Part shown: piece after piece, positions 6,286-54,236 of the stretch | Layout: each line of letters starts with the position of its first letter | Numbering within the stretch: position 1 is the stretch's first letter | Origin: Chloroflexota bacterium | GTDB lineage: Bacteria; Chloroflexota; Anaerolineae; Anaerolineales; UBA11858 | DNA: 59,401 nt | Reading direction: 5' to 3' | NCBI GenBank assembly: GCA_018648225.1 | Contig: JABGRQ010000046.1 | Coordinates: 1 to 59,401, forward strand | The notes under the pieces: model-generated | The model's database searches: none | Told to the model about the DNA's origin: nothing | The model's input: the letters and a program-made list of their open reading frames with translations, nothing else | Made by a program: the position numbers and the translations under genes

Positions 6286-7572
6286 ATGCTCAAAAAATTA
6301 CTCGTACCCTTATTGATATTGCCACTGATGCTGGCCGCCTGCAGCGGGGAGACTCAAGCCTCGCTCGAAGAGGCTCCTGTTGCCGTGGCGGATGCTGCAT
6401 CCAAAGTGGAATCCATCGTAGAGCCTGTAGCCACTGAAGCCGCAGCAGAATCCGTTCCCGGAGAATTTACCAGCGTATGTACCCTGGTCAGCGCCGCGCT
6501 GGATGCACCCGAAGAATACGCTCAACTCTTCGGTGTCACCGAGAGAGACTGGGTCTATGGCCCTGAAACCGCCGCCCTTACCATTGTTGAGTACGGCGAT
6601 TTCCAATGACCATACTGTGCCGAAATTGCGCCCGTGTTGGCGCAACTCAAAGTTGACTTTCCCGAAGATGTTCGTATTATTTACCGTCATTTCCCGTTGG
6701 CCTCCATCCACGATAAAGCCCTGCTCGCCGCACAAGCGGCTGAAGCGGCTGGCCTGCAAGATAAATTCTGGGAGATGCACGAATTCCTGTACGCAAATGC
6801 CCCCGAATGGAGTGAACTCAGTGTTGCAGAATTTCAGGCTTATCTGATCGAAAACACCGAATCCCTTGGGCTGGATGCAGACCAATTTGAAGTTGATCTG
6901 ACTAGCCAAGAAATTGTGGCCTTCGCCGAAAATACCTGGCAACTCGGCCAACAGATGGGCTTGCCCGGCACGCCATTTTTTGTGATCAATGACAATCCGT
7001 ATAATGGCCCGCTCGATTCTGCCAGTGTTGAGGCTACGCTCAACCTGCACACTCTGCCTGAGAGACAATACACCGAATGTCCACCGGCGGTGATTGATCC
7101 GCTTAAGGCCTACACCGCCACCATAGAGACCGAACGCGGCGATATCGTAATCGAACTCTTCCCCGATGTGGCTCCGCAGACGGTGAACAGCTTCGTCTTT
7201 TTGGCGCAAGAAGGCTGGTTCGACGATGCTCCTTTCCACCGCGTGCTTCCCGGCTTCATGGCGCAAGGCGGCGACCCCACCGGAACCGGAATGGGCGGCC
7301 CTGGCTATGCCTTTGCCAACGAAATCAGTGATGACCTGAGTTTTGATCGCGCTGGCCTGGTGGCGATGGCAAATTCTGGCCCGGATACCAATGGCAGCCA
7401 GTTCTTCATCACCTACGGGGCAGCCGAACACCTCAACGGCGGCTACACTATCTTTGGCGAAGTGCTCGAAGGTATGGATGTGCTCGAAAGCCTAACCCCT
7501 CGTGATCCTTCACAGGGTGGCGAACTTCCTGAGGGTGACAAGATCATCACAATTATGATCGACGAAAACTAA
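6286..7572 (+). CDS. Candidate selenoprotein: DsbA-like thioredoxin domain fused to cyclophilin PPIase, lipoprotein
   Basis: One frame of 428 codons interrupted only by TGA at 6607-6609 (codon 108). Residues 1-19 are a lipoprotein signal (LMLAAC, lipid on Cys19). Then comes a DsbA-like thioredoxin domain (about 95-255) in which EYGDFQ-TGA-PYC gives U-P-Y-C where paralogues have C-P-Y-C; the cis-Pro loop is PGTPFF. Residues 276-428 are a cyclophilin with FHRV, GFMAQGGD and NGSQFF active-site motifs. The DsbA paralogue at 44179-45012 has Cys at exactly the TGA position. A SECIS-like hairpin follows the TGA. The predicted role is oxidation or isomerisation of disulfides plus proline isomerisation during folding of exported proteins. 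The RBS AGGAG is 5 bases before ATG. The alternative is a nonsense mutation, but the long intact downstream frame argues against decay. Confidence 0.85.
6607..6645 (+). promoter_or_regulatory. UGA(Sec) codon and SECIS-like hairpin
   Basis: TGA at 6607-6609 is followed by a perfect 7-bp stem, TTGCGCC (6626-6632) and GGCGCAA (6639-6645), with loop CGTGTT. The loop starts 23 bases after the TGA and has G at its second position. Both fit the known bacterial SECIS rules (apical loop about 16-37 bases from UGA, G in the first two loop bases). SelB binding is inferred. Confidence 0.7.
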
Positions 7573-7639
7573 ACGTTGAAAGTTTCAGGTTGAAGGTTGA
7601 AAGTTATCCGTACACTTTCAACCTTCAACTTTTAACGTT
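7572..7639. repeat. Repeat family A (GTTGAAR heptads), inverted
   Basis: Starts with AACGTTGAAAGTT and ends with AACTTTTAACGTT, near-perfect inverted ends enclosing runs of the heptad GTTGAAR. Its right end supplies the weak -35 sequence of the dedA promoter. Confidence 0.85.
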
Positions 7640-7652
7640 AAGCCGGTATAAT
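7624..7652 (+). promoter_or_regulatory. Promoter of the dedA gene
   Basis: TATAAT at 7647-7652, with TTCAAC 17 bases upstream inside repeat A. About 26 bases of leader with an AAAGGA ribosome site precede the ATG at 7685. Confidence 0.5.
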
Positions 7653-8573: not shown

Positions 8574-9764
8574 ATGAATATTTCTCCGCCCCCCGTGTTT
8601 CATCTCATGGCAAAACCGCGTGGCGCAATTTGTAATCTGGATTGCGCCTATTGCTATTTTTTGTCGAAGGAAAAGTTGTATCCGGGAAGCGATTTTCGCA
8701 TGGGGGATGACGTGCTGGAAAAATATACACGCCAGTTTATTGAGTCTCAACGCGTCCCTGAGGTGACATTTTCATGGCAGGGGGGGGAGCCAACGCTGAT
8801 GGGCCTGGAATTCTTTGAGCGGGCGCTGCACTTTCAGAAGAAATATGCCCGGCCTGGGATGAAAATTCATAACGCACTGCAAACCAACGGGGTCACGCTC
8901 AACGCCGAGTGGTGCAAATTCTTCGGGGATAACAAGTTCCTCATCGGGTTGAGTCTCGATGGTCCGCGGCAAATCCACGACGGTTATCGTAAAGATAAGG
9001 GCGGACAACCCACCTTCGAGCGAGTCATGTGCGGCCTGCATCTTTTGCAGGAACACAAAGTCGAGTTCAACACCCTCACTACAATCCATGCCCTGAATGT
9101 CGAATATCCGCTGGATGTGTATCATTTTCTCAGAGATGAAGTTAAATCAGCGTTTATGCAGTTCATCCCCATTGTGGAGCGAGATAACGAAACCGGCTAC
9201 CAACAAGGCCGCAAAGTGACGAAGCGTTCGGTGGGCGGGCGGCAATATGGCGAATTTTTGACGGTAATTTTCGACGAGTGGGTGCGCCGCGATGTGGATC
9301 GTGTGTATGTACAAATTTTTGATGCGGCGCTGGGGGCGTGGTTGGGGCATCCGGGAAGTCTGTGCATTTTTGCCCCGATATGCGGCACAGCCCTGGCGTT
9401 AGAGCACAACGGCGATGTGTATGCCTGTGACCATTATGTCGAGCCGAAGTTTTTGTTGGGGAATATGGTTGAAACCGATTTGTCAGCGTTGGTGGCTTCC
9501 CCGCAGCTGGCGAAATTTGGTCGTGATAAGTTGGAAAAATTACCGCGCTACTGCCAAAATTGCGCGGTGCGTTTTGCCTGTCATGGCGGCTGCCCCAAGA
9601 ACCGCATTTTGCGTACGCCGGGTGGCGAACCGGGACTGAATTATCTGTGCGAAGGCTACAAGCACTTTTTCACACATATTGATACCCCCATGAAAACGAT
9701 GGCCGCCCTCATCCGTCAAGGGCGGCATCCGGCAGAAGTGATTAATTTGCTGAAAAAGGGTTGA
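8574..9764 (+). CDS. Anaerobic sulfatase-maturase-like radical SAM/SPASM enzyme
   Basis: 396 residues. The radical SAM cluster ligands are Cys20, Cys24 and Cys27 (CNLDCAYC), with WQGGEPTLMG after the first strand. A C-terminal SPASM region carries many cysteines around CGTALALEHNG, CDHYVEPKFLLGN, YCQNCAVRFACHGGCP, for two auxiliary Fe-S clusters. This matches the anSME/ChuR family, which converts an active-site Cys or Ser of sulfatases to formylglycine anaerobically. No sulfatase gene is adjacent, so the target may be elsewhere or different. Start ATG follows repeat B closely. The TGA stop falls in repeat A. Confidence 0.85.
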   Translation: MNISPPPVFHLMAKPRGAICNLDCAYCYFLSKEKLYPGSDFRMGDDVLEKYTRQFIESQRVPEVTFSWQGGEPTLMGLEFFERALHFQKKYARPGMKIHNALQTNGVTLNAEWCKFFGDNKFLIGLSLDGPRQIHDGYRKDKGGQPTFERVMCGLHLLQEHKVEFNTLTTIHALNVEYPLDVYHFLRDEVKSAFMQFIPIVERDNETGYQQGRKVTKRSVGGRQYGEFLTVIFDEWVRRDVDRVYVQIFDAALGAWLGHPGSLCIFAPICGTALALEHNGDVYACDHYVEPKFLLGNMVETDLSALVASPQLAKFGRDKLEKLPRYCQNCAVRFACHGGCPKNRILRTPGGEPGLNYLCEGYKHFFTHIDTPMKTMAALIRQGRHPAEVINLLKKG

Positions 9765-9833
9765 AAGTTATGGGTTGAAGGTTGAAAGTTCGTCAATCCA
9801 AACCTGTAATTTTCAACCTTCAACTTGCAATTG
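9760..9833. repeat. Repeat family A, inverted; overlaps the radical SAM stop codon
   Basis: GGGTTGAAAGTT at the left contains the TGA stop of the anSME-like gene; the right end TTTTCAACCTTCAACTTGCA mirrors it. Confidence 0.8.
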
Positions 9834-9840
9834 TAGACCG

Positions 9841-11832
9841 CTAATTCCGAAACGCTTCTGCGGGCTCCAGGTTGGCGGCGCGCAGGGCCGGGTACGCCCC
9901 GGAGAGCAGGCCGATCAGTGCGCCGATGATGGGGGTAGCAAAGGGAGCGGATGGGTCTAATACCGGCGTCCACACCTGAATGGCGGAAACGCCAACCACG
10001 ATGAACACGCCCAGGCTGGCTCCCAGCAGTCCGCCGACAATGCCCATCGCCGAAGTTTCTACAAGGAATTGCGCCGCGATATGGGTGCGCGTGGCACCGA
10101 TAGCGCGCCGCAGGCCGATCTCGCCGGTGCGCTCGATCACGGATACAAGGGTGATGTTGCCGATGCCGATTGCCCCAACGATGAGCGATAGGCCGCCGAG
10201 CAGCAGGAACATCACGTTCAGGTCGTTTTGCACGGAGTCGCGCACGCGCGCGGGTTCGGGGGGATACTCGACCTTCAGGACGGTGGTATTATCCGGGCGC
10301 AAGGCCAGGGGAATCTGACGCGCAATCAGCGAGGCCGCGCCAATGCGCGTTTCGATGACCACCATCCCCGGCCCGGCCAGACCAAAATCACGCTGAGCCG
10401 TGCCTTCGGGCAAAATCACCGCGCCGAGCAAATCTGGCTGACGGGCGACATCCTGCAAAATCCCTACGACCAGATAAATATGATCGCCAATAGCGATAGC
10501 GGGCAATTGCTCCAGCCCGACGATGCCCAGACGCTGCGCGGCAATCGGTCCCAGCAGAGCCACCCGGTCGGCGCGTTGCGAGTGGCCCAGATCGGGGAAG
10601 CGCCCGGCGGCCATCTCGGCCCGCACGGACGGATACAGCCCCGGCGAAGCCGCGATAACGCTCATCTTGAAGGCGGTTTGGGCCTGGGGGTCTTTGACCG
10701 GTGAAGCGCTGACTAGCGCGTCGCCGATATCCACTTCGCTCATATTGCCAACAGCCACCACGCCATTGAGCCGCTCCAGGCGGGCGGGTGCATCCCAGGG
10801 CATGGCGCGCGGGTCCACGCCCGTGACGGTGGATTTGGCATTGACGGTGATCTGCGTGGCGGCGAGTTCATCGAACTGGCTGATAATGCGGTTGCTGGCG
10901 GTGCGTGATAAACCCAAAGTGGCGACCAATGCCGTCAGCCCGATTACAACGCCCAGAATGGTGAGGAACATGCGCCCGGGACGGGCGAACATCCCGGCAA
11001 TTGCCTCGCTGAATAGGTCTTTGAGGGTGATACCGGAGGCGCGGGGGGCTGTGTCATTGCGAGGCGGTACACTTTCGCCGACACTTGCACCTGTAGTGTC
11101 AGGTACAGGTGAGCAATCGCCTATATCCGAAGAAGGGGATTGCTTCGCTGGCGCTCGCAATGACATATTGTTGAGTTTCCCATCAATGATGTGCACCCGG
11201 CGGGCGGCGCGGTTGGCGACGTTTTCGTCGTGGGTGACAACGACCAGGGTGAGGCCTTGCTGGTTGAGTTCGTCGAAGAGATCGAGTAACGAAGCCGCGG
11301 ATTTTGAATCCAGGTTTCCGGTGGGTTCGTCGCACAGCAGCAGGCCGGGTTTGCCCATCAGCGCGCGTGCGATAGCCACGCGCTGACGCTCGCCGCCAGA
11401 GAGCTTGGGGGGCAGAAAATCGACCCGATGCCCCAGGCCGACGCGTTCCAGCGCGGCCATCGCACGCGCGCGGCGACCCTCGCGCGGCTGTTGGCGGTAG
11501 ACTTCGGCCAGCATGACGTTTTCCAGCACCGAGCGATAGGGCAGTAGATGAAACGATTGAAAGACGAACCCAATGCGACGGGAACGCAAACCGGCGCGCT
11601 GGTTGTCGCTCAGGGTGGCGGTATCCACCCCCTCGAAAAGAAACTGACCTTCGCTGGGACGGTCGAGGCAGCCGAGAATTTTCAGCAGGGTAGATTTCCC
11701 TGCCCCAGAAGGCCCGGTGATTGCCAGCCATTCGCCCGCACCTACGCACAGGTTAATATTGGATAGCGCCTGCACGACTGCGCCGTTGCCGAATTGTCGG
11801 CTGATATTGGTTAATTCTAGAATAGTAGACAT
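9841..11832 (-). CDS. MacB-like ABC transporter, ATPase fused to FtsX-type permease, with repeat-encoded linker
   Basis: 663 residues. Residues 1-220 are an ABC ATPase of the MacB/LolD type: Walker A GPSGAGKS (40-47), signature LSGGE (144-148), Walker B LLLCDEP (164-170), His201. Residues about 270-663 are a MacB-type permease with one N-terminal helix, a large extracytoplasmic domain and three C-terminal helices including GEIGLRRAIGAT. Residues 223-260 are encoded by a complete 114-bp interspersed repeat (11052-11165), exactly 38 codons, placed at the domain junction. With the adaptor and lipoprotein upstream it forms a tripartite mechanotransmission-type exporter; the substrate is unknown. 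Confidence 0.88.
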   Translation of the reverse strand: MSTILELTNISRQFGNGAVVQALSNINLCVGAGEWLAITGPSGAGKSTLLKILGCLDRPSEGQFLFEGVDTATLSDNQRAGLRSRRIGFVFQSFHLLPYRSVLENVMLAEVYRQQPREGRRARAMAALERVGLGHRVDFLPPKLSGGERQRVAIARALMGKPGLLLCDEPTGNLDSKSAASLLDLFDELNQQGLTLVVVTHDENVANRAARRVHIIDGKLNNMSLRAPAKQSPSSDIGDCSPVPDTTGASVGESVPPRNDTAPRASGITLKDLFSEAIAGMFARPGRMFLTILGVVIGLTALVATLGLSRTASNRIISQFDELAATQITVNAKSTVTGVDPRAMPWDAPARLERLNGVVAVGNMSEVDIGDALVSASPVKDPQAQTAFKMSVIAASPGLYPSVRAEMAAGRFPDLGHSQRADRVALLGPIAAQRLGIVGLEQLPAIAIGDHIYLVVGILQDVARQPDLLGAVILPEGTAQRDFGLAGPGMVVIETRIGAASLIARQIPLALRPDNTTVLKVEYPPEPARVRDSVQNDLNVMFLLLGGLSLIVGAIGIGNITLVSVIERTGEIGLRRAIGATRTHIAAQFLVETSAMGIVGGLLGASLGVFIVVGVSAIQVWTPVLDPSAPFATPIIGALIGLLSGAYPALRAANLEPAEAFRN
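11052..11165. repeat. Repeat family D inserted in frame inside the MacB-like gene
   Basis: TGTCATTGCGAG at 11052-11063 and CTCGCAATGACA at 11154-11165 are perfect 12-bp inverted ends. The 114-bp length keeps the frame. Confidence 0.9.
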
Positions 11833-17656: not shown

Positions 17657-18571
17657 ATGAGCATTACCGCCGCGGTTCTAATTATTCTCTCTGCCTTTAT
17701 GCACGCGCTGTGGAACTTTATCAGCAAACGGCGCAATCCATCGTTGGCGTTTTTCTTTGTGAACGCGGTGATGGTTTCAATTGTGGTGTCGCCTGTGTTG
17801 GTGTTTCATCGCCAAACGCTGTTAATCCTACCCTTGTCGTTTTGGGGAGGGGTGCTGGCAACCGGGCTGGCGCAAATGGTCTATTTTATGGGATTGGCAG
17901 GAGCCTACCGCAACGGCGATATCTCGCTGGCCTATCCGCTGGCGCGCTCACTGCCGGTGTTGATGGTGGCGGGACTCAGCCTGATGCTGGGACACAGAAC
18001 CGAGATTGGGAATCTGGGTCTGGTGGGCATGCTGTTCATCACGGTGGGTTGCATTATGCTGCCTTTTCCCCGCTTCCAGCGAATGCGCTGGCGCGAATAT
18101 TTGAGCGTCGTCTATATCATGGCTTTCGTGGCAGCAATTGGCACAACAAGCTACACCCTGATTGACGATTATGGCCTGGCGCAGTTGCGCGCGTGGCTGT
18201 TGCCTCAACAATCTGTGCAATCGATTACATTGCTATATATGGCCCTGCAAATTAGCAGCACAACGTTGATGATGGGGATCGGGACGCTGCTTTCCCCGTC
18301 AGAGCGTCGTCAGTTACGGCAGATTTTGAAACCCCCCAGGCAAATCGTTTTGGGATTGGCTACGGGGCTGACGATTATGGCAACCTACGGGTTGGTGCTG
18401 GCCGCGATGTCGTATGTGAACAATGTCAGTTATGTAGCCGCATTCCGGCAGTTGAGCATTCCCATTGGGGCAGTTCTCGGCCTGACCATACAGGGCGAGC
18501 CGCGTTATACACCCAAATTATTAGGCATCGGGATTGTGTCGCTGGGGTTGATTCTCGTTGGGGTTGGTTGA
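17657..18571 (+). CDS. EamA/DMT family transporter
   Basis: 304 residues with ten predicted membrane helices in two five-helix halves, the pattern of drug/metabolite (EamA) transporters. The first half has FMHALWNFISKR and GDISLAYPLARSLPVL, a recognisable EamA helix-4 signature; the second ends with YVAAFRQLSIPIGAVLGL, the matching segment of the repeat. It sits in the cytoplasmic membrane and probably exports a small metabolite. It is divergent from the OmpR-type gene and has a near-consensus promoter. The last codons run into repeat A. Confidence 0.85.
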   Translation: MSITAAVLIILSAFMHALWNFISKRRNPSLAFFFVNAVMVSIVVSPVLVFHRQTLLILPLSFWGGVLATGLAQMVYFMGLAGAYRNGDISLAYPLARSLPVLMVAGLSLMLGHRTEIGNLGLVGMLFITVGCIMLPFPRFQRMRWREYLSVVYIMAFVAAIGTTSYTLIDDYGLAQLRAWLLPQQSVQSITLLYMALQISSTTLMMGIGTLLSPSERRQLRQILKPPRQIVLGLATGLTIMATYGLVLAAMSYVNNVSYVAAFRQLSIPIGAVLGLTIQGEPRYTPKLLGIGIVSLGLILVGVG

Positions 18572-18646
18572 GAGTTGAAGGTTAAAAATTGAAGGTTGAA
18601 AGTTCACTTGCCAACCTTCAACCTTCAACGTGCAACTTTTAACGTT
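18567..18646. repeat. Repeat family A, inverted; overlaps the EamA stop
   Basis: GGTTGAGAGTTGAAGG at the left contains the TGA stop at 18569; right side CCAACCTTCAACCTTCAACG ends in AACGTT. Confidence 0.8.
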
Positions 18647-18659
18647 TATCTGGCATTCA

Positions 18660-21308: not shown

Positions 21309-21779
21309 CTATTCGCCAATTGCTACGACCATGGCGATGGCGTGCGTTTCGGTATGGCTTATGCTAATGGACCAGGTTTCCAGTCCAAGCTTTTCGGCCA
21401 GTTCTTGGGCTGCACCGTGCAAATATAACACCGGAGCGCGGTTTTCGTCTCGCAAGATTTCGATTTCCTGAAAACTGACCGCGCCGATGCCTGTCCCCAG
21501 AGCTTTGGCAACGGCTTCTTTAGCGGCAAAACGCGCTGCCAGCGATTCGATACTAAACCGCGGATACCCTTTCGGGCACTCGTGAACGCGGATAGACGCT
21601 GATTTTTTCTCGTTTGTATATCTGTGTTTATCTGTGTTTATCCGCGGTTGATCTTCTACCGCACAAATTTCCAACTCGCGCGGGGTGTAGATGCGCGCTA
21701 AGAACTTTTCCCCATGACAAGCGATGGATTCGCGGATACGTTCTATCTCGATCAGGTCTATGCCGGTTGCTAATTTCAT
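21309..21779 (-). CDS. acpS: Holo-[acyl-carrier-protein] synthase with repeat-encoded insertion
   Basis: 156 residues. It transfers the phosphopantetheine arm from CoA to acyl carrier protein. The N-terminal GIDLIEIERI supplies Asp8, and ARFAAKEAVAKALGTG supplies the second Mg ligand Glu88; SISHTETHA is the conserved C-terminal segment. Normal AcpS has about 125 residues. The excess of about 32 residues (roughly 44-75) is exactly the part encoded by an interspersed repeat at 21556-21649 and lies in the loop between the two helices that carry the ligands. Both active-site motifs are intact, so the enzyme is probably functional with an exposed extra loop. It is likely essential. Confidence 0.9.
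   Translation of the reverse strand: MKLATGIDLIEIERIRESIACHGEKFLARIYTPRELEICAVEDQPRINTDKHRYTNEKKSASIRVHECPKGYPRFSIESLAARFAAKEAVAKALGTGIGAVSFQEIEILRDENRAPVLYLHGAAQELAEKLGLETWSISISHTETHAIAMVVAIGE
21556..21649. repeat. Repeat family I inserted in frame inside acpS
   Basis: Arms AACCGCGGATA (21556-21566) and TATCCGCGGTT (21639-21649) are perfect inverted copies. The interior carries tandem ATCTGTGTTT units. The resulting residues (INTDKHRYTNEKK) have no counterpart in other AcpS proteins that I know. Confidence 0.85.
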
Positions 21780-21782
21780 AAT

Positions 21783-21853
21783 GGTTGAAAGTTGAAAGTT
21801 GAAAGTTGAAGGGTATCAACAAACTTTCAACCTTCAACCTGTAACTTTTAACC
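21783..21853. repeat. Repeat family A, four GTTGAAA heptads then inverted copies
   Basis: GGTTGAAAGTTGAAAG, continuing in heptads, mirrored by CTTTCAACCTTCAACC. It lies between the NarL-type gene end and the acpS start. Confidence 0.85.
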
Positions 21854-22495
21854 CTCGTCTAACGGCACAATCCGCTGCTTCAACGCATAAATTGCAGCCT
21901 GTGTCCTATCGGCGAGTTGCAGTTTGCTGAAGATGTTGCTGACGTGGGTTTTGACGGTTTTTTCGCTGACGACCAGCGACGCGGCGATTTTACGATTATC
22001 CTGCCCCTGAGCGATGAGCTTGAGTACTTCCAGCTCGCGGCTGGTCAGGCTTTCCAATGAGGGTGCGTCCCCGGAAATTTCTTCCATCAAGCGTTTGGCA
22101 ATGCGCGGGTGCAAGCGCGCTTCTCGATGAGCCGCAGCGCGCACCGCGTCGAGAACTTCGTCGGGGAGCGAGCTTTTGAGTAGGTAACTCAGCGCCCCGG
22201 CCTTGATCGCCGGAAAGACGAGCGCATCTTCGTGATGGCTGGTGAGTACGACCACCTGCGTGTGCGGGCTGGCTTCACGGATGGCGCGTGTCGCATCCAC
22301 GCCGCCCATGCCGGGCATAACCAAGTCCATGAGGACCACATCGGGCAAAATTTGCTGAATCCGCTCAATGGCGGTATTCCCATCCTCGGCCTCGCCCGCC
22401 ACCGCGAGGTCGTCCTGAATCTCTAATAGTTGGCGCAATCCCTGCCGCACGATGGGGTGGTCATCCACGATGAAAACGGTGATTTTTTCAGTCAT
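21848..22495 (-). CDS. NarL/FixJ family response regulator
   Basis: About 215 residues from the ATG at 22495. Receiver domain VFIVDDHPIVRQGL, phosphoacceptor Asp57 (VVLMDLVMPGMGG), VVVLTSHHE switch and SYLLKSS lysine. C-terminal LuxR helix-turn-helix LTSRELEVLKLIAQG ... NRKIAASLVVSEKTVKTHVSNIF. It is a DNA-binding regulator whose partner is the NarX-type kinase at 23443-24909, separated by one gene. A longer in-frame start at 22555 would lie inside repeat C and is not credible. Target genes are unknown. Confidence 0.92.
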   Translation of the reverse strand: MTEKITVFIVDDHPIVRQGLRQLLEIQDDLAVAGEAEDGNTAIERIQQILPDVVLMDLVMPGMGGVDATRAIREASPHTQVVVLTSHHEDALVFPAIKAGALSYLLKSSLPDEVLDAVRAAAHREARLHPRIAKRLMEEISGDAPSLESLTSRELEVLKLIAQGQDNRKIAASLVVSEKTVKTHVSNIFSKLQLADRTQAAIYALKQRIVPLDEG

Positions 22496-22504
22496 ATTGA
22501 AAAA

Positions 22505-22609
22505 CGAACGCAATACCCTAAAGGGCACAGGTGGCGCAAAGATGCAAGGACGCAAAGATTTTTAAATTATTTCTTTGCGCCTTCGTTTCCTTGCGTCTTT
22601 GCGTTAAAA
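22505..22609. repeat. Repeat family C (GCAAAGNNGCAAGGACGCAAAG type), inverted
   Basis: GCAATACCCTAAAGGGCACAG opens it and CTTGCGTCTTTGCGTTAAA closes it. The same opening occurs at 33095. The TTAA at its end provides the TAA stop of the gene at 22604-23410. Confidence 0.85.
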
Positions 22610-27977: not shown

Positions 27978-29504
27978 TTAGATCAAATTAACGCTAATGA
28001 CGGCTAATAAACTCATCAGGGCGATCAGCAGGCCGGTGTAGACGAGCATTTTTCGCATTACTTCGCCTTCGCGTCCGGCCATACCGCCCGTGCTGGCTCC
28101 AACCACAATTTTTGTGGGCGCAATCACCGAGCCGAGCGCCGCCCCCGAGGTTTGCGCAGCCAAGATCAGCGCCACACTTAGGCCGAGCAATTCAGCGGTG
28201 CGCATTTGTAGGGCGGCGAAAACCACATTCGAGTTGGTGTTGCTGCCAGTCATAAAGGCGCCCAACGCTCCAATCCACGGGGCAATCGCCGGGAAAGCCG
28301 CGCCCACTCCCTCGGCGAGTCCGTTAGCCAGCGTTTCGGTCATGCCAGCGTGCTGCATTACCACGGCCATCGCCACCATTGAAGCGATCCCCACGCTGGA
28401 GGACATCACCTTTTTTACCGTGCCCCCTACGATGGTTTTAACCGCTCCGTCTCGATACCATCCGGCTTTTTTGTAGATCAAAAAGGAGGCAATCGAAGCG
28501 TAGAGCAAAATCATCCCGGCGTGACGGAAAATGGGGATGTCGCGACCGCTCTCCGCGGGGGTGGCAAACCCCAGGGATGTGCTCACCGCCCCGAAGTCGA
28601 GATGCAGGCGGACACCCCCTAAGGTGGCTCTGATCCCGGGGATGAGTTGAATCCCGAGGGTGATCGCGATCAAAACGAGGTAGCCCGAAAGGGCAATCCC
28701 CACCGAGCGGGAATCCAGCTTATCGTTCTCGCCCTGCTCCCCTCGAAAGTGCCGCGCCAGCGGCCAGGCCGCCAGCAGCCCGGTGAGACTGCCCAAAAAC
28801 GCGCCGATATTCCACAGCCCGGCGGTGGCGGCAAAATATTGCCCCGCGCCCATGAATACACCCAAAACCAGCACCGGGATTGCCAGCCGCCGCATGGTTG
28901 ACATACCTCCGGCGGCGTGCGCTACGAGGAAGCCAACACCCAGTCCAGCAATCCCCAAGAAAATAGCCGACTCGGCGGCTAAATCAGAGTAATCCAGCCC
29001 GGTTGCGGCCATCATGGCATTGAAGGAGGATCCCAGCGAGCCAAATGTGACCGCCCATGAGTGCCCCACGGAGGGAATCACTACCGCAGAGAGCGGTGCG
29101 AAGCCCAGCCCAACCATAATCGGGGCGATGACGGCCACCGGCACGCCAAACCCACCCACGCCCTGCAGGAAAGATGCGAAGACCCAACCGATGATGAGTG
29201 CCTGCATGCCGCGGTCGGCGGTGAGATGCGGCAGCGCCTGCCCGATGATTTTGATCGCTCCGGCTTCGTCGGCTACGCGGAAGAGAAGGAAAGCGGCCCA
29301 AATAATCATCAGCACGTCGATGATTAACAGCAGGGCTTTGCCGTGTGCCACAGCCAGCAATTGGGCCCCCGATCCGAACGCAAAAATGGCAACGACCAGC
29401 GCAGAGAGATACCCGGCAGCCCCGGCGCGGGAGGCCCCCCAACGCAGGCCGACCATGAGGATCAAAATAATGGCGATAGGTGTGAATGCGAGAAGAAAGT
29501 TCAT
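27978..29504 (-). CDS. L-lactate permease family transporter (LctP)
   Basis: 508 residues with about twelve to fourteen membrane helices. Signatures include FLQGVGGFGVPVAVIAPIM and VGHSWAVTFGSLGSSFNAM, which are diagnostic of LctP, and MTGSNTNSNVVFAALQ near the C-terminus. LctP members carry lactate or glycolate with protons across the cytoplasmic membrane. No lactate dehydrogenase gene is close, so the substrate is inferred from family. It stands alone between repeats C and A. Confidence 0.9.
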   Translation of the reverse strand: MNFLLAFTPIAIILILMVGLRWGASRAGAAGYLSALVVAIFAFGSGAQLLAVAHGKALLLIIDVLMIIWAAFLLFRVADEAGAIKIIGQALPHLTADRGMQALIIGWVFASFLQGVGGFGVPVAVIAPIMVGLGFAPLSAVVIPSVGHSWAVTFGSLGSSFNAMMAATGLDYSDLAAESAIFLGIAGLGVGFLVAHAAGGMSTMRRLAIPVLVLGVFMGAGQYFAATAGLWNIGAFLGSLTGLLAAWPLARHFRGEQGENDKLDSRSVGIALSGYLVLIAITLGIQLIPGIRATLGGVRLHLDFGAVSTSLGFATPAESGRDIPIFRHAGMILLYASIASFLIYKKAGWYRDGAVKTIVGGTVKKVMSSSVGIASMVAMAVVMQHAGMTETLANGLAEGVGAAFPAIAPWIGALGAFMTGSNTNSNVVFAALQMRTAELLGLSVALILAAQTSGAALGSVIAPTKIVVGASTGGMAGREGEVMRKMLVYTGLLIALMSLLAVISVNLI

Positions 29505-29509
29505 AGCGT

Positions 29510-29581
29510 GTTGAAGGTTGAAAATTGAAGGTTGAAAGTTAAAAGTTGAACCTTCAACCTTTAACTTTTAACTTTCAACCC
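29510..29581. repeat. Repeat family A; encodes the end of the CPBP protein
   Basis: GTTGAAGGTTGAAAATTGAA mirrored by ACCTTTAACTTTTAACTTTC. On the minus strand it supplies the last residues (LKVKS) and TAA stop of the CPBP gene. Confidence 0.85.
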
Positions 29582-30463
29582 CGTATTCGAATTTCGCGTG
29601 TATAAATAAATGAGCGCCGCGCCGAAAATCAGCCCCGGTATTACGATCAACCCGGCCTCCGGGCCGAATGTGCCGCCGGTGATGAGGATGGGACCATCGA
29701 CGGTGATGTAGGTTAAGTTGAAAATATCCAGACCGCTGACGGGGAAGCCGAAGACTACACCTTCGAAATAATTCCAGCCGATGTGCAGGCCAATCGAGAG
29801 CCAGAGTTGACCCGTGCGCACATAGCCATAGGCCAGAAAAACGCCCGCCAAAAAGATGCCCGCCGCGCTGACCCAGGTGGCGTTGGGATTGCCCAGATGG
29901 AGTATGCCAAATACTGCGGATGAAATGATGATACCCCAGGTCAGGTTGATGCCGCTGGCGAGGGTTTGCAGGTGATAGCCGCGGCTGAGCAATTCTTCGT
30001 TCCAGCCGACGAGAATGAAAACCAGCAATACCCCCAGGGCGTTGCGCAGCACCGCACTTGTCGACATATAGTCCCAGGCGAAGCCTTCGAGCGTGATCCA
30101 GCCGAAGGCGCTCTCCAGGGCGAAAATCCCGGCCATCATCAGTCCGGCGATACCAATTCCGGTGAGAGTATCTATGCCAGCGCGCTTGTCGAGCTTCAAT
30201 CCCAAACTGACGAAACTGCGCCGGTCAAGCAAACGTCGCGCCAGATAGATGGATAGCGTAAAGGCGATCAGTTGGGCAATTTGTGTAATCAGCATTTGAT
30301 CGCCGATTTTACTGAAAAGCGAGGGCAGCAGGAGCAATCCCATACCCAGGCCAATACTGATGATGATCATAAAAATAGTTTGCAGCACCAGCCGCCATCC
30401 GGCGCGCAGGCGCGGCTCTTCGGGCGAGATAAATATTCGGGCAAGGATATTGCGTTTTTGCAT
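29561..30463 (-). CDS. CPBP family intramembrane metalloprotease
   Basis: 300 residues with about eight membrane helices. The catalytic motifs of the CPBP/Abi (CAAX prenyl protease-like) family are WNEELLSRGYHLQTL (EExxxR), later IISSAVFGILHLGN and LSIGLHIGWNY with the metal-binding His residues. These are glutamic or metal-dependent intramembrane proteases, acting in the cytoplasmic membrane; substrates are mostly unknown. The final five codons and the stop come from repeat A, so the original C-terminus was altered by the repeat. Confidence 0.88.
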   Translation of the reverse strand: MQKRNILARIFISPEEPRLRAGWRLVLQTIFMIIISIGLGMGLLLLPSLFSKIGDQMLITQIAQLIAFTLSIYLARRLLDRRSFVSLGLKLDKRAGIDTLTGIGIAGLMMAGIFALESAFGWITLEGFAWDYMSTSAVLRNALGVLLVFILVGWNEELLSRGYHLQTLASGINLTWGIIISSAVFGILHLGNPNATWVSAAGIFLAGVFLAYGYVRTGQLWLSIGLHIGWNYFEGVVFGFPVSGLDIFNLTYITVDGPILITGGTFGPEAGLIVIPGLIFGAALIYLYTRNSNTGLKVKS

Positions 30464-52646: not shown

Positions 52647-54236
52647 TTATTCAGCGTCCTCGCTGGGTTCTTCTTCTGCAATTTCTTCTTCAGCGGTATC
52701 TGCGGTTTCCACAACTTCTTCTACCGCTTCGTCTTCTTCGACGACTTCTTCGACGACTTCTTCAACGACATCAGTAACTTCTACAGCTTCTTCAATCGTT
52801 TCAACTTCCTCGATTTCGACGACTTCTTCAACAACCTCGGCGGCTTCTACAACATCTTCGACAGTTTCAACTTCTTCTACTGCTTCATCTTCTTCGACGA
52901 CTTCTTCAACGACATCAGTAACTTCTACAGCTTCTTCGATCGTTTCAACTTCTTCGGTTTCGACGATTTCTTCAACGGTCTCAACGGCTTCTACTTCAGT
53001 CTCGGCCTCAGTTTCATCGTAGGGCGATTCAAAAGTAGCATCCACTTCTTCTTTTGCAAGCTTCCAGTCCAGATCGATATAGGCGCCGGAATCAACTTTT
53101 CGCAGGCTCAAGCCAATGCGGAATTTGTCGCGGTCAATGTTGATGATGCGCAAGGTCAAGGTGTCGCCAACTTTGACAACTTCCTTGGGATGTTCCACAC
53201 GGTCGCCGCTCAGTTCAGAGATATGGATAAGACCTTCAAGCTCGCGGTCTTCCAGGCGGGCAAAAGCGCCAAACTCGGTCAGGTGGGTGATGGTACCTGC
53301 CACCAATTGACCTTCTTTGAGGTCTTTGACTTTCACCAGCCAGGGATTTTCTTGCAATTGGCGAATCGACAGGCCAATGCGCTTGCGTTCCTGGTCGAGG
53401 CTAATCACTTTGACTTCAACTTCCTGTCCAACTTTTAGAACATCTTTCGGATGTTTAATGCGTTCCCAGGAAATTTCAGAAAGATGTACCAGACCATCGG
53501 CGCCATCAATATTGACGAATGCGCCGAAATTTGCCAGGCTGGTAACGCGTCCGGTGCTGACGGTGCCAATGGCAAGTTCGTCGAGCAGGCGGTCTTTGAG
53601 CGTCTCGCGGGTCTCGTTGAGCGCTTTACGTTCAGAAAGAATCAAACGACGGCGGGCACGGTCAACTTCGATAACGTTGATCTCAATCGGTTCACCAATG
53701 AGCTTGCCCCAGCGTTTTTCGGGGGTGTCGCCCGTGGTGCGACGAGTCAGGCTGATCTGTGAACCAGGCACAAACCCGCGCAACCGACCAATGGGAACCA
53801 GCAAGCCACCTTTGTTGAATCCAGAAATGGCTCCATCGTAAGCGTCTCCGCTTTCTTTGAGCTGTTCTACTAGCTCCCAATCCTGTTCTTCTTTGGCTCG
53901 GATATAGGAGACAGCTAAATTCCCGTTACGATCCTCTGGCGTAAGGACATAAATGGTAATCGGTTCCCCCACCTCAAATTTTGCGCGTTCGTCTGAATCA
54001 ATCTGATCCAGTTCTTTGCCGGAGATAACGCCTTCCGACTTTGCGCCAATACCTACCAGAATTTCTGAATGCGTGACGGCGGCGATTATACCTTCACGAA
54101 TTTCACCAGAAGTAGGCAGATCTATTTCTAAGCCCTGCTCATCGAGCAGTTCTTCCATAGACATATGGCGTTCGGGCGCTTCTTCGACTTCTCCTTCCAC
54201 GATGTTTTCGGCGACGACAACTTCACTTTCAGTCAT
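52647..54236 (-). CDS. rpsA: 30S ribosomal protein S1 with acidic repeat tail
   Basis: 529 residues. Four S1 (OB-fold) RNA-binding domains at about 40-115, 125-205, 218-290 and 303-375, for example GTVSTGRVTSLANFGAFVNI and GTITHLTEFGAFARLEDREL. S1 brings mRNAs to the 30S subunit. The last 125 residues are nearly pure Glu/Val/Ala with two copies of a 48-residue unit (VETIEEAVEVTDVVEEVVEE), which is encoded by a 144-bp tandem DNA repeat. Such a tail should be a charged extended helix; it is unusual for S1. The gene has a strong promoter (TTGCCA, 17 bp, TATAAT). Confidence 0.92.
   Translation of the reverse strand: MTESEVVVAENIVEGEVEEAPERHMSMEELLDEQGLEIDLPTSGEIREGIIAAVTHSEILVGIGAKSEGVISGKELDQIDSDERAKFEVGEPITIYVLTPEDRNGNLAVSYIRAKEEQDWELVEQLKESGDAYDGAISGFNKGGLLVPIGRLRGFVPGSQISLTRRTTGDTPEKRWGKLIGEPIEINVIEVDRARRRLILSERKALNETRETLKDRLLDELAIGTVSTGRVTSLANFGAFVNIDGADGLVHLSEISWERIKHPKDVLKVGQEVEVKVISLDQERKRIGLSIRQLQENPWLVKVKDLKEGQLVAGTITHLTEFGAFARLEDRELEGLIHISELSGDRVEHPKEVVKVGDTLTLRIINIDRDKFRIGLSLRKVDSGAYIDLDWKLAKEEVDATFESPYDETEAETEVEAVETVEEIVETEEVETIEEAVEVTDVVEEVVEEDEAVEEVETVEDVVEAAEVVEEVVEIEEVETIEEAVEVTDVVEEVVEEVVEEDEAVEEVVETADTAEEEIAEEEPSEDAE
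52722..52978. repeat. 144-bp imperfect tandem repeat in the S1 tail
   Basis: GACATCAGTAACTTCTACAG begins at 52767 and again at 52911, with mostly synonymous differences. The period of 48 codons preserves the frame. Confidence 0.85.

Follow-up and report, generated by a model that had tools for sequence, protein, structure and literature searches.

The window, by which we mean the whole 59,401-nucleotide stretch analyzed here, comes from an uncultured bacterium of the order Anaerolineales and carries on its minus strand a gene for holo-[acyl-carrier-protein] synthase (AcpS), which activates the fatty-acid carrier protein. The gene is longer than is usual in its genus and holds a palindromic repeat within its reading frame:

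21309..21779, minus strand: acpS, holo-[acyl-carrier-protein] synthase, 156 aa (genus norm, ~122 aa).
21556..21649, minus strand: palindromic repeat element ("family I"), 94 bp, in-frame translation PRINTDKHRYTNEKKSASIRVHECPKGYPR.
21608..21649, minus strand: 5′ arm of the element (coding strand), 10-bp units AACCGCGGAT / AAACACAGAT / AAACACAGAT plus a short tail (from the sequence and the alignment of copies).
21556..21603, minus strand: 3′ arm of the element, ATCAGCGTCT / ATCCGCGTTC units, a nested mini-hairpin, and then ATCCGCGGTT (from the sequence and the alignment of copies).
21564..21579, minus strand: the nested mini-hairpin, GTGCCCGAAAGGGTAT, within the 3′ arm.

The open reading frame at 21309-21779 matches both PF01648 (E = 5.6e-17; 62.2 bits against a cutoff of 25) and the NCBIfam model TIGR00516 (95.5 bits against a cutoff of 59.8). 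At 156 aa, the product exceeds the family norm of 120 to 125 aa, which is a usual length rather than a catalytic criterion, and its core without the insert is 121 to 122 aa long. The residues conserved across a 12-sequence AcpS alignment are kept (Asp8, Glu88, KEAxxKA, and GTG). Measured against other species of the genus, the core has a dN/dS of 0.10 to 0.15, with dS near saturation, and is under purifying selection. The source genome (G000) is a 4.02-Mb draft of 226 contigs that is 97.35% complete, and 2 to 3% of it may be missing. The preliminary description of this locus had named an intact second acpS as the finding that would make the present copy dispensable; a genome-wide profile search of the draft found a single PF01648 locus and no second acpS. 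From its biology and from being the sole copy detected, AcpS is presumably essential in this bacterium.

Compared with the insert-free enzymes of four species of the same genus (G001 to G004), AcpS of G000 carries a single block of 34 additional codons (QPRINTDKHRYTNEKKSASIRVHECPKGYPRFSI), which adds 102 nt and keeps the frame. Since the insert-free enzymes are ~122 aa long, the net gain is 34 codons. This block corresponds to the 94-bp palindrome (21556-21649) together with a few flanking codons. It occupies the loop between helix 33-39, which comes after a T-x-x-E-L motif, and helix 77-94, which bears the metal ligand Glu, and thus falls between Asp8 and Glu88, which are the metal ligands. 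The preliminary description had proposed that an interspersed repeat at this position makes an extra AcpS loop, and the repeat copies together with the empty sites in relatives bear this out. Its estimate of 32 residues, with ~124 aa left on their removal, was close to the measured values. It had also placed the insert between two metal-binding helices, which holds for the ligands but is loose as to the helices, because Asp8 is on a strand.

In an AlphaFold model based on the 12-sequence alignment, the AcpS core has pLDDT values of mostly at least 90, while insert residues 43 to 68 fall below 50 and are without secondary structure. The closest PDB structures to the model are AcpS enzymes, with a TM-score of 0.9 by target length. 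The insert-bearing protein is therefore predicted to fold like a normal AcpS, the insert forming a disordered loop; the alignment with sister species and the structure prediction, both suggested in the preliminary description, thus agree with an added loop on an intact fold. Because this loop precedes the metal-binding Glu helix and is near the CoA site of known AcpS enzymes, the insert may alter affinity; we infer that its effect on activity is near neutral. An apparent match of the insert to the PPT domain of fungal FAS came from a misalignment across the FLxRxxT helix and reflects no shared insert.

The acpS element is bounded by an 11-bp perfect terminal inverted repeat (AACCGCGGATA...TATCCGCGGTT), and its DNA folds better than nearly all shuffled versions (z = −2.55; 3 of 200 shuffles equally good). 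Only one of its six frames is open, and this is the one in use. As 20% of shuffles also keep the used frame open, the open frame alone is weak evidence, and the case for an insertion is the membership in a repeat family combined with the empty sites in relatives. By eye, no consistent target-site duplication was found in the listed copies, and the sequences flanking the acpS copy (GAAGATC / TAGTATC) are not convincing as one.

The element recurs at five other places in G000 by blastn (E = 1.1e-11 to 1e-5). We also built a covariance model of the hairpin, R1, from four intergenic copies. It matches the acpS element at 21583-21640 (E = 1e-5) and, with 150 of 1,202 first-look candidates scored, about 30 places in G000 at E values up to 0.1, some of the weakest being hairpins with other units. 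The typical copy is an imperfect hairpin of ~70 bp with an A-rich loop, in which each arm consists of three 10-bp units (consensus AACCGCRGAT AAACRCAGAT AAACGCAGAT ... ATCAGCGTTT ATCCGCGTTC ATCTGCGGTT; element ends AACCGCRGAT / GGACGCGGAT). Most copies are intergenic, and several begin directly after a stop codon. R1 matches with E values up to 1e-5 occur in 26 of 61 sampled genomes of the order, including the single-contig genome G030, so the family is unlikely to be an assembly artifact. Rfam matches to the hairpin were of microRNA type and below threshold and were taken as chance. In G006, a species of the same genus, many near-identical 92-bp hairpins were seen (L077, L100, L106, L115, and L117), with conserved flanks and some of them at contig ends, which suggests a recently multiplied element.

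The mini-hairpin GTGCCCGAAAGGGTAT of the acpS copy is also nested in two R1 copies (L051 and L091) and, at 22513-22528, in a different hairpin family; 0.05 chance occurrences are expected in the window. That it is nested in both R1 copies and another family suggests that hairpins are inserted into unrelated hairpins, and its presence in one arm accounts for the 94 bp of the acpS copy against the typical ~70 bp. The second host in the window is an 8-bp-unit hairpin (CGCAAAGA type) at 22507-22606, ~950 bp from the acpS element, in which the mini-hairpin reads GTGCCCTTTAGGGTAT. Hairpins of 7-bp units (GTTGAAA/GTTGAAG) lie between genes at 7570-7648, 9757-9843, 18563-18655, 21779-21857, and 29499-29593, one of them directly upstream of acpS, and dozens more copies are found in the genome. 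The window also contains a 124-nt direct repeat with overlapping copies (52727-52994).

In-frame copies inside coding genes number nine in two families of the order: the two in AcpS, of which the second is described below, and seven others, which makes eight besides the one in AcpS of G000. The seven are as follows:

741-aa membrane protein, G000: in-frame copy; no Pfam match.
MacB-like ABC protein, G005: in-frame copy between the ATPase and the periplasmic core.
HypF, G006: in-frame copy within the YrdC domain.
CydD-type ABC transporters, G006 and G003 (L107 and L124; two copies): in frame, in one and the same loop preceding the ABC signature.
N6 methylase, G006: in-frame copy of a variant with other units.
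HypF, G049 (another family; L275): in-frame copy after the last zinc finger and ahead of the YrdC domain.

HypF, the CydD-type and MacB-like ABC proteins, and the N6 methylase were confirmed by Pfam. In all nine copies, it is the A-rich hairpin strand that is read. The resulting peptides are hydrophilic, most being of the NTDxHR...KK...IRVHP type; the opposite strand would for the most part yield hydrophobic ones. In G000, 2 of 31 examined places are in frame within genes, a fraction that gives no genome-wide rate because the sample was picked by model score. Apparent open reading frames that span an element in L045, L046, L112, L133, L245, L254 to L256, and L276 were left uncounted, as a real gene frame across the element was unsupported, and so was L114 (FGE-like), where the element is at the N terminus. 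The CydD copies of G006 and G003 differ, and in other genera the relatives seem to be free of an insert at this site. The HypF gene of G006 (L105, 73-2640, minus strand) also seems to hold translations of 7-bp-unit repeats (QLLTPNSQLLTPISH); they fall in the linker that carries the R1-type insert in HypF of G049.

Two results go beyond the preliminary description, namely, the in-frame presence of the same repeat class in other genes and a hit to the same AcpS loop in a second species. The AcpS gene of G006 contains an insert of 44 codons that shares its loop, orientation, and reading phase with the one in G000. The insert DNA matches R1 (E = 3.2e-9), its peptide shares the pattern KSA-IRVH, and in the AlphaFold model its residues 43 to 80 are likewise of low confidence and disordered. 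By match coordinates, no other AcpS of the order had an insert of comparable size, among the relatives with matches and the best 80 genome-contig loci. In a small, unrooted RpoC tree, in which the G004 sequence is partial, G000 and G005 are sisters (98.3%), G004 comes next, and G006 groups with G001 to G003. Every genome of the genus used here is at the draft stage. The assembly of G005, the closest relative, does not contain the acpS region, so this genome gives no test of age, and the insert of the G000/G005 lineage is known from one genome.

The shared loop, orientation, and reading phase could be taken to mean that a single insertion in an ancestor of the genus survived in G000 and G006, all other lineages having lost it. 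We consider this unlikely. As the RpoC tree separates G000 and G005, along with G004, from G006, a single ancestral insertion needs losses in G004, G001, G002, and G003, whose AcpS enzymes have no insert at the site. Moreover, the elements are of different subfamilies, each resembling the copies of its own genome: the G006 acpS element is nearest to other G006 copies (GGACGCGG...GTCC subfamily), and that of G000 has the AACC...GGTT ends common among G000 and G005 copies. Elements of different subfamilies, in species on either side of the genus tree, are more simply explained by two insertions that were apparently independent.

The insert in acpS is thus very probably a nonautonomous palindromic element, similar to the Rickettsia palindromic elements (RPEs) discussed below, that is tolerated as a flexible loop and belongs to a class that enters genes in frame recurrently. 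The dispersal of the copies and the empty sites point to mobility of the element. We propose that a small interspersed palindrome (~70 bp; 94 bp here) entered acpS in the loop before the Glu helix and that the A-rich strand of its hairpin, open in one phase by chance, came to encode a peptide (xNTDxHR...KK...IRVHP) that is hydrophilic and disordered. The insertion (+102 nt) would have kept the frame of an enzyme that is predicted still to fold, and for these reasons the allele would have been fixed as a tolerated extra loop. In-frame insertions of the same class would also have occurred in other genes and, apparently independently, in this AcpS loop of a second species; since the loop of that relative holds a comparable insert, the repeats seem to write extra peptides into enzymes.

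How such repeats move is a separate matter. REP/RAYT systems consist of interspersed hairpins of 20 to 40 bp, some within genes, with a GTAG or CGTC tag (PMC3733652), and an IS200/IS605-like tyrosine transposase of this type, acting on hairpins, might mobilize the present repeats as well, given that these too are short interspersed hairpins and that the genome has two Y1_Tnp genes. This seems improbable to us. No R1 copy lies within about 1.5 kb of either Y1 gene of G000, so that no transposase was linked to the element in a search that covered Y1 genes; the copies have no constant GTAG/CGTC-like tag; and they measure ~70 bp, with three-unit arms, rather than 20 to 40 bp. By the features tested, the element is not of the REP/RAYT kind.

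Recurrence at one loop might instead reflect selection, the insert being a domesticated functional loop with a role in regulation, partner binding, or CoA/ACP selectivity. In its favor, one AcpS loop carries inserts of apparently independent origin in G000 and G006, and one CydD loop was hit in both G003 and G006. However, the two AcpS loops share little sequence beyond the part dictated by the repeat, both are predicted to be disordered, the same type of peptide occurs in unrelated proteins, and the other AcpS enzymes examined are all without it. Recurrence is equally explained if this loop is one of few tolerant ones, and we regard domestication as quite unlikely. The same small chance attaches to a bolder version: in free-living Chloroflexota, palindromic repeats would enter the same enzyme loops time and again and reshape them, and the loop that the element made in AcpS would have acquired a use, for example, in modulating trimer, CoA, or ACP contacts; if true, the repeat would be a recurrent source of new protein segments. 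That this acpS is a pseudogene or a chimeric assembly, with the real enzyme encoded elsewhere, is conceivable in a draft of 226 contigs but is largely refuted, and very improbable, as the frame is open over its full length with the conserved residues kept, dN/dS is about 0.10 to 0.15, there is no other PF01648 locus, and an independent genome carries the same kind of allele.

On the preferred reading, that of a tolerated palindromic insertion, the element works like the RPEs of Rickettsia, a likeness drawn from behavior as described and not from sequence. RPEs are palindromes of 105 to 146 bp (PMC2229807) found between genes and in frame in conserved genes, where they add a short peptide (Ogata 2000, 2002; PMC2229807, PMC10969869); 19 in-frame insertions have been reported, and an insert-bearing guanylate kinase is active with altered affinity (PMC2229807, PMC10969869). 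The Chloroflexota element is likewise an interspersed palindrome of many copies (~30 places here) that occurs in frame in conserved genes and has a preferred frame. It differs in its host, which is not a member of the Rickettsiales, in its smaller size (~70 bp), in its arms of three 10-bp units, in a seemingly smaller intragenic share, and in the repeated entry into the same loop. Wolbachia, too, has protein-coding palindromic repeats in frame in proteins (Ogata 2005, as cited in PMC2229807); as far as that citation describes them, they resemble the present in-frame palindromes, in hosts that are Rickettsiales endosymbionts. The enterobacterial RU-1/ERIC, RU-2, and RU-3 elements and other miniature elements (MITEs) with open reading frames are also small and nonautonomous, and some are fused in frame (PMC2759123, PMC10969869). 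The terminal inverted repeat expected of a MITE is present in the acpS element, but RU-type MITEs are longer (103 to 168 bp), and several families have target duplications, of which the listed copies here show no consistent example.

In open-licence papers, we found no earlier report of such elements in Chloroflexota (Chloroflexi), and neither the repeat sequence nor its peptide gave a relevant match. The best-known cases of in-frame palindromes in conserved genes come from Rickettsiales, obligate intracellular bacteria whose small populations readily explain the tolerance. Here, environmental Chloroflexota seem to show the same behavior, including repeated entry into one loop of a single-copy, presumably essential enzyme. 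The repeats may thus show, as a natural experiment, which enzyme loops can accommodate ~30 foreign residues, and annotated "extra loops" in metagenome-derived proteins of this group may be translations of repeats.
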